Assembly (NCBI GenBank): GCA_023267535.1
Contig: JAHFNC010000007.1
Coordinates: forward strand, 1-39,246
Length of the DNA: 39,246 nucleotides
Direction of reading: 5' to 3'
Source: a bacterium
Lineage (GTDB): Bacteria; Patescibacteriota; Minisyncoccia; Phycocordibacterales; UBA5272
Shown here: positions 32,817 through 37,514 of the stretch, in pieces
How the letters are laid out: each line of letters starts with the position of its first letter
Position numbering within the stretch: position 1 is the first letter of the stretch
Notes under the pieces: generated by a model
What the model was told of the DNA's origin: nothing
The model's database searches: none
The model's input: the letters and a program-made list of their open reading frames with translations, nothing else
Position numbers and translations under genes: made by a program

Positions 32817-32856
32817 TGCTCCGTGGGTAGGGATCGAACCTACGACCAATTGGTTA

Positions 32857-33433
32857 CATTTATCCTTAAATTTCTAAAAGGGATGGACTATATCATCATC
32901 CACATACTTTTGTATGTTTGGACGCGAGGCGCTTCGGACCAAAATTAATTTTTGGCACTACTCCTAAAAAGGATAGTCTCTACACCTTCCCGTTCACCAT
33001 TTAATGTGTGCACGGGCTTGGCTCGGTATTACCCACGACTTAACACGTTTCGGGCTTCACCGAGTTCACCTCGTTTTCGACCTAAGTTACCTTAGGAAGC
33101 TGCGTCATACCCGCATGGATTTCTCTATGACAATTTGCACAGACAAGAATACATTTATCAATTTCTTTCTTTATTTTTTCCCACGACCTTGTGACACCTC
33201 TTGCAGATAAACCGAAGTCTTTCTGCTTTGGGTCACTGTGGTGAAAATCTAAAGCGTCCGCACATTTTTTATAGTTACAAATCATGCATTTACCGCCTTT
33301 GTATTCTCTAGCCATAACACGAAGTTTTTTACGACGCTCGATTACAGCTTTTTTCAAATACTCTTTGCGGTCGGCATATTTTCTTTTATCTGGCATATAC
33401 ATTAGTGTATACCAAAAAGGAAATTAATAATTC
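32857..33433 (-). other. Group I intron (IC3-like) in the anticodon loop of tRNA-Asn
   Basis: 5' exon ends in U, intron ends in G; Q-like AATACCGAGCCAAGCC (33015-33030), R/P7 GGTGTAGAGACTATCC (32971-32986), S/P7' GATATAGTCC (32885-32894); IGS GCAGC (33099-33103) pairs with exon GCUGU through a terminal G.U. Confidence 0.92.
33082..33402 (-). CDS. Intron-encoded HNH homing endonuclease
   Basis: 106 aa; CMICNYKKCADALDFHHSDPKQKDF...CILVCANCHREIHAG, the Cys-containing HNH motif. Confidence 0.9.
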   Translation of the reverse strand: MYMPDKRKYADRKEYLKKAVIERRKKLRVMAREYKGGKCMICNYKKCADALDFHHSDPKQKDFGLSARGVTRSWEKIKKEIDKCILVCANCHREIHAGMTQLPKVT

Positions 33434-33561
33434 ACAGCCAACTGCTCTACCGCTGAGCTACCACGGAATATTTAATTTTAAAATAACAATTTATTTTGTT
33501 TTCAATTGTTATCACTACTTTATTTTGTAGTTTTTTAATTCTAGCACATCTATTTTTGAAA

Positions 33562-34611: not shown

Positions 34612-36087
34612 ATGGCAATAGAAAAACAAATACCTCAGGGTGGCGAGGCTGTGCTTCGTTTTGAGGATTTAACATTTAAATACGGAGAAAATAGAATCAT
34701 TTTAAAAGAGGCTAATTTTGTTGTGCGCAAAGGAATCAAATTAACTTTAATGGGACAAAATGGTGCTGGAAAGTCCACCCTCTTTTCTTTAATTACAGGA
34801 GAGCAAAAGCCTGAAGAAGGCAGAGTTATAATTGGGCAAAATTTAAAAGTATCTATTGCTAAACAATTTATTCCTCATACTAAATGGGAAATAACTGTTC
34901 GTGATTTCTTGCAAGAAGCCTTTGACGAAAAAGTTTACGATATTGATAAAAAAGCAAAAGATATTTTTAAGGTGATAAATCTAAATATAGATTTAGACAA
35001 AAAAATCCGTGAATTGTCCGGTGGACAAAAAGGAAGACTACTAATTGCTCAAGCTCTAGTACAAAAGCCAGATATATTGCTACTAGATGAACCAACTAAT
35101 AATCTTGATAAAGAAGGAGTTAAACTTCTTATGGAATTTCTAAAAGATTACGAAGGAACAGTGATAGTTATTTCTCACGATTCTGCCTTTTTAAATTCTT
35201 TCACTCACGGGGTGTTATATATGAATACTCAAAACTACCAGACTGAACAATATACCGGTAACTATTACAAAGTGGTAGAAGATATTAAAAGAAGAGTTGA
35301 AAAAGAACAGAGATCAAACGCTCAATTGGAAAAAGAAATTATTGGCAATAAAGAAAAAGTAAACTTCTTTGCTCACAAAGGAGGAAAGATGCGTAAGTTA
35401 GCGGCAAAACTAAAAGATGAAGTGGAAGAAATGGAAGACAGTAAGGTTGATGTTAGAAAAGAAGATAGAACTATAAAAAATTTCTCTATCAGTTGCCAAG
35501 AAGAAATTGGCGGAGTGATTGTTAAATTTGATGCCGTTGAAATGCTAGACAATGGAAAAGTTGTAACTAAGAAAGTAGACATTGAACTTCGTAAAGGAGA
35601 CAAGCTTCATATTACTGGACCAAATGGAGTTGGGAAAACTACGCTACTTGAAAGAATCGCCAAGAGAAAAGCTAAAGGTGTCACCATACAAGAAGATATA
35701 AATATCGGTTATTACAGACAAGACTTTTCTACTTTAGATTTTGATAAAAGTGCTTATCAAGAATTGGCACAAATTTTAAAAAAGTTAGATGATCAACTAG
35801 TTAGAAAAACTGCGGCTCACATGTTGCTTGGTTCGGAAGCATTAAAATCAAAAATTGGATTATTATCAGAAGGACAGAAAGGATTACTGATGTTTGCTTA
35901 TCTTCGTTTACAAGTCCCTGGCCTTCTTATATTAGATGAACCAACCAACCACATAAACTTCCGACACATTCCAGCCATTGCTGAAGCTATCAAAAATTAC
36001 GAAGGCCCTGTTATAATCGTCTCTCACGTCAATGATTTTGTAAGACAGCTTGGAATCACTCAAACTCTTGATTTAGGAAAAATATAA
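34612..36087 (+). CDS. ABC-F family ATPase
   Basis: Two ATPase domains: GQNGAGKST, LSGGQKGRLLIAQAL, LLLDEPTNNLD; GPNGVGKTT, LSEGQKGLL, LILDEPTNHI; ATG at 34612 is the probable start (listed ORF starts at 34531). Confidence 0.93.
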   Translation: MAIEKQIPQGGEAVLRFEDLTFKYGENRIILKEANFVVRKGIKLTLMGQNGAGKSTLFSLITGEQKPEEGRVIIGQNLKVSIAKQFIPHTKWEITVRDFLQEAFDEKVYDIDKKAKDIFKVINLNIDLDKKIRELSGGQKGRLLIAQALVQKPDILLLDEPTNNLDKEGVKLLMEFLKDYEGTVIVISHDSAFLNSFTHGVLYMNTQNYQTEQYTGNYYKVVEDIKRRVEKEQRSNAQLEKEIIGNKEKVNFFAHKGGKMRKLAAKLKDEVEEMEDSKVDVRKEDRTIKNFSISCQEEIGGVIVKFDAVEMLDNGKVVTKKVDIELRKGDKLHITGPNGVGKTTLLERIAKRKAKGVTIQEDINIGYYRQDFSTLDFDKSAYQELAQILKKLDDQLVRKTAAHMLLGSEALKSKIGLLSEGQKGLLMFAYLRLQVPGLLILDEPTNHINFRHIPAIAEAIKNYEGPVIIVSHVNDFVRQLGITQTLDLGKI

Positions 36088-36134: not shown

Positions 36135-36416
36135 TTAGAATGATCTGCGAGGACGATCCTCTCTCTTCTCCATTGGACGAGCAACATTCACTGTTAGACG
36201 ACGTCCCTCGAATTCTTTATCGTGGTACATGTCTATAGCTTTGTTGGCATCTTCCTCAGAAGCCATCTCTACGAATCCAAAACCCTTTGAACGGTTTGTC
36301 ATCTTATCGTTGATAATTTGAGCTGAAACAACAGTTCCAGCTTTTGAGAAATGATTTTTAAGGTCATCGCTTGTAGAAGTGTAAGGAATTCCTCCTACGA
36401 ATAATTTTGTGGTCAT
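36135..36416 (-). CDS. RRM-type RNA-binding protein
   Basis: KLFVGGIPYTSTSDDLKNHFS (RNP2), KGFGFVEM (RNP1), Arg-rich tail. Confidence 0.95.
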   Translation of the reverse strand: MTTKLFVGGIPYTSTSDDLKNHFSKAGTVVSAQIINDKMTNRSKGFGFVEMASEEDANKAIDMYHDKEFEGRRLTVNVARPMEKREDRPRRSF

Positions 36417-36569
36417 TTAAAAAAATTTAAACTTATTAAAGTAAGGCACAAACACAATTAACAAAACAAAACTTTGCAAACTGAGAAAGACACTTACTAG
36501 GGAACAATATAACACAGAAACAATAATTAGTCACGGCCTTAATTAATAAAAGACAATTATAAACAAAAA

Positions 36570-36593
36570 AACCATTGCCAAGTAATGGTTTTA
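36570..36593 (-). terminator. Minus-strand terminator
   Basis: Minus strand AAAACCATTACTTGGCAATGGTTTTTTTG. Confidence 0.65.
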
Positions 36594-36599
36594 AAAACT

Positions 36600-36629
36600 T
36601 TGACTTGCTTTTGTTAAAATATATGTTAT
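36600..36629 (+). promoter_or_regulatory. Promoter of the candidate ncRNA
   Basis: TTGACT (36600-36605) with -10 candidates TATGTT (16-nt spacer) or TGTTAT (18-nt spacer). Confidence 0.55.
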
Positions 36630-36635
36630 GTTTAA

Positions 36636-36806
36636 GCTGGGTTTGTGGATCGACACCATTCCATGGAAACAGTCGACGTCGTGTGGGTGAGTAAGTCCCC
36701 ACATGTGAGTGTGTCAAAGCTCACTTAGGTGTATCTCACAGGACACCTAAAGACAGATCTTGCAATACCTACCCGTCAATCTCCCCTTGTTGACGGGTTC
36801 TTTTTT
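36636..36806 (+). ncRNA. Candidate ncRNA with serial hairpins and an intrinsic terminator
   Basis: Hairpins TGTGGG/CCCACA, GTGAG/CTCAC, TTAGGTGT/ACACCTAA and terminator ACCCGTCAA/TTGACGGGT, all with 10-nt loops; U tract after the last. Confidence 0.6.
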
Positions 36807-36821
36807 TGATTATTTGAATTA

Positions 36822-37514
36822 CTATTTGCTCCAACCTTTTTTAATAAGAGCATTCTTGGCGGCATTAGTTTCAGCTTCTTGTTTACTTTTTCCATCACCT
36901 TCTGCAATTTTTTCATCACCGAAATGAATTGAGATAATAAATAATTTGTCATGATCAGGGCCAGACTCTGAAACAACTCTATAACTTGGAGTTACTCCAA
37001 ATTTTTCTTGTGACTTTTCTTGAACCAAACTCTTTGGATCTTTGTAAGCACCGTTTCTGACAATGGCATCAGTCTTTACTAAAAGAGTTTTAGTAATAAA
37101 TTCTTTAACCTTTTCGTAACCGCCATCAATGTATAAAGCTCCGATAAATGCTTCATAAGCATCTGCTAATATTGAACTTCTAGCACGAGATACGTCTTTC
37201 GCCTCCCCTTTAGAAAGTAAAATTAAATCATTAAAAGAAAGTTCATTTGCTACTTCACTTAATGTTATGGTATTAACCAGAGCTGAACGATAAGCAGTCA
37301 AATCCCCTTCGTTGTGGTCTTTATATTTATTAAAAAGAAATTCAGTAGTAATGAGTTCTAAAACAGCATCACCTAAAAATTCTAATCTCTCATTGTGATG
37401 AAGATTTATTTTTGGATTCTCATTTATATAACTACGATGAATAAAGGCTTGCTTAAGTAAGTCTTTATCATTAAATTTTATATTTACCTTTTTCTCAAAT
37501 TCACTAAGTGTCAT
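36822..37514 (-). CDS. rnc: Ribonuclease III
   Basis: HNERLEFLGDAVLEL signature; SSILADAYEAFIGALYIDGG; C-terminal dsRBD. Confidence 0.97.
   Translation of the reverse strand: MTLSEFEKKVNIKFNDKDLLKQAFIHRSYINENPKINLHHNERLEFLGDAVLELITTEFLFNKYKDHNEGDLTAYRSALVNTITLSEVANELSFNDLILLSKGEAKDVSRARSSILADAYEAFIGALYIDGGYEKVKEFITKTLLVKTDAIVRNGAYKDPKSLVQEKSQEKFGVTPSYRVVSESGPDHDKLFIISIHFGDEKIAEGDGKSKQEAETNAAKNALIKKGWSK

Follow-up and report, generated by a model that had tools for sequence, protein, structure and literature searches.

The 6S RNA is a rod whose large central bubble mimics an open promoter; it binds RNA polymerase and templates pRNA. Bacterial SRP RNA carries a domain IV with a GGAA loop and AGCAG, sponges of the CsrB/RsmY type pair several GGA hairpin loops with a CsrA homologue, and the sRNAs of the staphylococcal Rsa and streptococcal csRNA types mask Shine-Dalgarno (SD) sites with C-rich loops. 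In Campylobacter, CJnc190 and CJnc180 reportedly form a convergent cis-antisense pair of sRNAs that is cut by RNase III. To our knowledge little has been described on sRNAs in Patescibacteria, for which a literature search returned no clear match. More generally, RNase III cleavage of sRNA pairs is an established theme (e.g. PMC8687705), and the Ms1 RNA of Actinobacteria, an intergenic sRNA shown to bind the RNAP core, diverges in sequence beyond the reach of BLAST and has been tracked by its gene neighbourhood (PMC9130861).

The window analysed here, a 39,246-nt stretch of DNA that is contig C13 of a 652-kb MAG (G000; 94% complete, 35% GC), holds a candidate sRNA gene unit at 36600-36806 (+), in which a promoter region is followed by a body of ~170 nt and a terminator. 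The genome is inferred to be of Patescibacteria type, and rnc matches in other genomes bear the names Patescibacteria, Parcubacteria and Paceibacterota. The unit is divergent from the gene of an RRM-domain RNA-binding protein (36135..36416, -; Pfam RRM_1, 1.4e-23) and convergent with rnc, the RNase III gene (36822..37514, -; Pfam Ribonucleas_3_3, 2.1e-37, and dsrm, 5.5e-17), whose stop codon lies about 16 nt from the 3' end of the putative sRNA. The intrinsic terminator reported in the initial annotation was recovered by a terminator scan at 36771..36806 (+), where ACCCGTCAA/TTGACGGGT encloses the nominal loop TCTCCCCTTG and precedes a T-run, and no gene on the + strand accounts for it. The nearest such gene codes for an ABC-F-type protein and stops at 36087, where a terminator-like hairpin of that gene follows, so that the terminator at 36771-36806 calls for a transcript starting within the gap. 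The -35/-10 pair noted upstream is likewise present, but it can be read in three overlapping ways, as TTGACT-16-TATGTT (36600-36627, +; scan), as TTGCTT-16-TATGTT with TGn before the -10 (36605-36632, +; by eye) or as TTAAAA-18-TAAAAT (scan), and the 800 nt scanned contain four promoter-like sites where 2.6 are expected; a sigma70-type promoter for the element is plausible, not proven. If the 5' end is placed some 7 nt downstream of the -10 box, a candidate sRNA of about 170 nt results (36634..36806, +), a transcript that likely exists. With promoter-like boxes and a terminator of its own, and no ORF in common with its counterparts in related genomes, the element has the make-up to be expected of a stand-alone sRNA gene.

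Within the host genome, such units are scarce. The GC content of the element (0.486) compares with a mean of 0.341 for intergenic regions, and its region ranks 38th by GC among the 241 intergenic regions that reach 80 nt, a count that rests, like the SD and -10 counts given below, on home-made, crude gene calls; many of the regions with higher GC carry tRNAs. A promoter and a terminator inside one gap were found in 20 units of the genome scan, and when a body GC of at least 0.45 was imposed and tRNA units and small genes recognized by eye were set aside, two remained. One is the element at 36600-36806; the other is an orphan unit made up of a promoter, a short GC-rich hairpin RNA and a terminator (G000:C5:179804-179916, +; locus L162, 19804-19916). 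Being one of two such units among the 241 regions, and having positional counterparts in three relatives, the segment bears out its earlier designation as a candidate noncoding RNA gene. Two further observations were made in this genome. A tRNA-Asn(GTT) gene (window 32818-33467, -) is interrupted at anticodon positions 34-35 by a 577-nt group I intron, which contains an HNH-type ORF at 33082-33402, and a conspicuous stem-loop segment (GGATAGGAAC ... GTTTCTATC) occurs around 86336-86735 (-) of another contig (G000:C12), where the next gene lies on the other strand.

The element could not be assigned to a described RNA family, in agreement with the initial annotation: searches of Rfam at gathering and at permissive thresholds (cmscan E up to 5) gave only chance-level matches. 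The 6S RNA model RF00013 had no match in the element region (cmscan E up to 5) or in the 16 genus genomes, and neither did the SRP RNA models RF00169 and RF01854, although the RF01854 search control missed B. subtilis, so that the lack of RNA families across the genus is not firm. SRP RNA was set aside because the element has neither a covariance-model match nor the domain IV GGAA loop/AGCAG motif, tmRNA because its gene is elsewhere in the genome, and RNase P RNA because the element matches no Rfam RNA; RNase P RNA itself was found in 15 of the 16 genus genomes and not in G000. A sponge of the CsrB/RsmY type was rejected too, as no convincing CsrA emerged (tblastn best E 0.30) and GGA occurs in one nominal loop only. 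In kind, the element is probably an ordinary sRNA gene outside the known Rfam families.

The + strand folds better than its shuffles (z about -3.1 to -3.7 in two runs, -3.7 for 36634..36806), and the - strand does not (z -0.65 and -0.62). Four consecutive stems, each closing a 10-nt loop, had been described in this segment, and under Watson-Crick pairing alone the description is exact: stems of 6, 5, 8 and 9 bp at 36682-36703, 36705-36724, 36725-36750 and 36771-36798 are the only ungapped hairpins with 5 bp or more (loops of 3-15 nt) in 36640-36800, and every loop has 10 nt. Hairpin 1 (36681..36704) is formed by TGTGGG/CCCACA around the nominal loop TGAGTAAGTC, hairpin 2 (36705..36724) by GTGAG/CTCAC around TGTGTCAAAG, reduced to 8 nt by a U-G pair, and hairpin 3 (36725..36750) by TTAGGTGT/ACACCTAA around ATCTCACAGG, reduced to 3 nt by an inner helix; all three were obtained both by folding and by hairpin search. 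When G-U and inner pairs are admitted, however, the loops of the MFE fold measure 5, 8, 3 and 8 nt. None of 3,000 shuffles yielded four equal loops, a post hoc result that holds only while those pairs are ignored; four hairpins as such are ordinary among shuffles (P=0.17), the loops of the counterparts differ, and equal loops find no support as a structural hallmark. The four stems stand where they were placed, but the description had missed a fifth, imperfect hairpin (hairpin 0, 36648..36680; TCGAC/GTCGA with CCAT/ATGG inside) and a weak, G-U-rich closing stem, predicted in the MFE and centroid folds between 36636..36646 and 36753..36763, which completes a multi-branched MFE structure with four inner hairpins. 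The surroundings of its 3' arm, AAAGACA-GA-CTTGCAATACC, are the part most like the counterpart in genome G001. The proposed contacts of loop 3 with loops 1 and 2 do not stand out, since two loop pairs complementary over 4 nt or more arise in 24% of shuffled loop sets (P about 0.24), and loop-loop pseudoknots were rejected at this chance level. The claim of equal loops is hence best dropped, leaving a probable sRNA gene of no special loop geometry.

A unit of similar build occupies the same locus in three of the 15 genus relatives, identified by position in G001 (C19:9450-9652, -), G013 (C13:3668-3854, +) and G006 (C11:5874-6048, -). Each adjoins the RRM gene and comprises a promoter-like region, a structured segment of 140-170 nt and a terminator; boxes of the form TTGC..TGnTAnnnT precede those of G001 and G006, and the promoter of G013 is the least clear of the set. 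The units of G001 and G013 are convergent with rnc, and that of G006 with an ORF that reads by eye as a TlyA-type gene. Their primary sequences have drifted apart: similarity between the window and G001 is marginal (P about 0.012), most other pairs are at chance, and the elements do not allow a confident alignment. The four contain about 4, 2, 2 and 1 inner hairpins, with unlike loops. Searches with blastn in 61 relatives, 21 family genomes and 380 phylum genomes returned only chance-level pieces of 16-33 nt, among which a 23-nt match in G011 was discarded as a homologue because it merely shares the terminator; nor did the element have a match in phages or plasmids or by two exact IMG/VR patterns. 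The adjacent 5' leader of the RRM mRNA (36417 to about 36510, -; AARTAAGCAACT ... GGGCTTA) recurs in conserved form in 11 genus genomes, has no Rfam match and is a possible cis-regulatory leader; as it was readily aligned by the same tools over the same genomes, a conserved RNA at the element would have shown. We regard the element as probably an orphan, fast-evolving sRNA gene.

An alternative is that the RNA is transcribed yet functionless or transient and arose independently at a permissive locus. Few species have the element, no significant sequence match lies beyond G000 in the genomes searched, and most RRM-rnc gaps of relatives are without it; nevertheless, the full-length elements of the window, G001 and G006 all fold above their shuffles, and four genomes share the locus with a promoter-like region and terminator unit of similar size, so that we rate this explanation as rather unlikely. 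A small peptide gene is far less credible still. It would be the 20-aa ORF MFKLGLWIDTIPWKQSTSCG, already named as an alternative in the initial annotation and possibly leaderless, or another short ORF, and it could draw on the frequency of leaderless starts in G000 and on a TAAAAT box 7 nt before the ATG (36628). Under either of the other -10 readings, however, this ATG falls upstream of the RNA start, and the counterparts carry unrelated ORFs of 16-48 aa; the 20-aa ORF, not being conserved among them, does not displace the noncoding reading.

For the putative sRNA gene, the layout of the locus suggests a mode of action. A free-standing gene with its own sigma70-type promoter and terminator would lie tail-to-tail with rnc, and rnc transcripts running through the element would gain a 3' tail that is the exact complement of the sRNA. 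The two could pair into a long duplex, a potential substrate of the RNase III that rnc itself encodes, and cleavage of this duplex could set the level or the 3' ends of the rnc mRNA. Cis-antisense pairing with read-through of the convergent gene, usually rnc, is the most likely of the modes considered, and we propose it tentatively and with low confidence. The promoter-like boxes, the terminator, the + strand folding, the convergent layout and the three counterparts are observations, whereas transcription, read-through, pairing, cleavage and regulation are inferred. Since no consensus-type terminator separates the rnc stop codon from the element, convergent transcripts would be expected to run through it, with the qualification that the simple consensus scan behind this result missed the sRNA terminators of G001 and G006, owing to their longer loops, and its negative results are soft. 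The same scan calls no terminator on the - strand in 36300-37100, a range that includes an AT-rich hairpin with a T-run seen by eye at 36566..36595 (-), where rnc read-through might end. Convergence with rnc in G000, G001 and G013, and a strong rnc-strand terminator standing beyond the element in G013, favour this mode, which needs position and orientation but not conserved sequence and thus fits a shared locus with barely alignable sequences. Against it, of 12 genus genomes with a recognized RRM gene only four have the element at that locus, the convergent gene of G006 is not rnc, and the structure of the + strand (z -3.7) exceeds the need of a pure antisense RNA. In G002 and G011, rnc stands beside the RRM gene with just a short gap and one hairpin, and a scan of 80 rnc loci found mostly short gaps after rnc, indicating that the unit is not a general feature of Patescibacteria.

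In favour of a trans-acting sRNA, whose exposed loops, or the segment 36747-36770, would pair with mRNAs elsewhere, the element has the anatomy typical of sRNAs. This segment, the part most like G001, forms one duplex (-22.5 kcal/mol) more stable than those of 120 shuffles, but it was one of six segments tried, and the duplex spans the likely promoter of the target gene, upstream of the expected RNA start, for which reason the target was rejected. Duplex energies of loops 1-3 resemble those of shuffled loops, and loop 4, for which binding to SD sequences had been proposed, does only slightly better (35 sites at or below -10 vs 17-24 for shuffled loops). An SD motif precedes 47 of 600 genes (about 8%) in G000, a 6-mer complementary to the loop occurs in eight of 600 initiation regions, and the C-rich loop sits in the terminator loop of the window element and is absent from the terminator loops of the counterparts; the anti-SD proposal finds no backing here. 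In this incomplete MAG a pattern search for the 16S 3' end returned nothing. Strong -10 boxes are most frequent at -12 to -15 relative to the start codon (600 genes), a position that, together with the rare SD motifs, points to widely leaderless mRNAs in G000. A search for Hfq was positive in G006, G008 and G009 and negative in G000, G001 and G013. Together with the rarity of SD sites, this makes both an anti-SD loop and a trans-acting sRNA of the usual kind less convincing, and a trans-acting role rather unlikely.

A structured RNA that binds protein, such as a 6S-like ligand of RNA polymerase or a sponge for the RRM protein, is another of the less likely explanations. The 6S slot is open in the 16 genus genomes, in each of the four elements the predicted fold places a closing stem immediately ahead of the terminator hairpin, and RNAP-binding RNAs such as Ms1 can evade sequence search and be found by synteny (PMC9130861). 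The motif AGTAAGT, moreover, is found in loop 1 and likewise in the RRM mRNA leader, but it occurs once in the element and not in the counterparts; the number of inner hairpins varies between elements, and the window RNA folds as a multi-branched structure instead of a rod with a central bubble. More speculatively, and in our estimation improbably, these RNAs might constitute a Patescibacteria-specific sRNA of the RRM-rnc locus, with a conserved architecture (the closing stem abutting the terminator) and near-free sequence; such an sRNA would act as an antisense switch linked to RNase III or stand in for 6S RNA in a lineage that yielded no match to it. A promoter-RNA-terminator unit that persists beside rnc despite sequence drift would open a way to study regulation in a reduced genome in which Hfq, 6S RNA and most SD sites were not found; if the RNA is functionless, the locus is an ordinary one.

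Among described systems, 6S RNA resembles the element as a stand-alone, promoter-driven structured RNA, with a closing stem predicted in all four elements, but the element has no covariance-model match and several hairpins in place of one bubble rod. With the Rsa and csRNA types it shares CUCCCC in a hairpin loop, although here the C-rich loop belongs to the terminator, is not kept in the counterparts and faces a genome in which SD sites are rare. Ms1 is similar as an intergenic, sequence-divergent sRNA followed by its neighbourhood; the element, a putative sRNA, has another neighbourhood and no 6S-like rod. Relative to CJnc190/CJnc180, the opposite strand would here be the 3' tail of an mRNA, and the likeness lies in overlapping opposite transcripts, predicted in this case, with RNase III as their likely processor.
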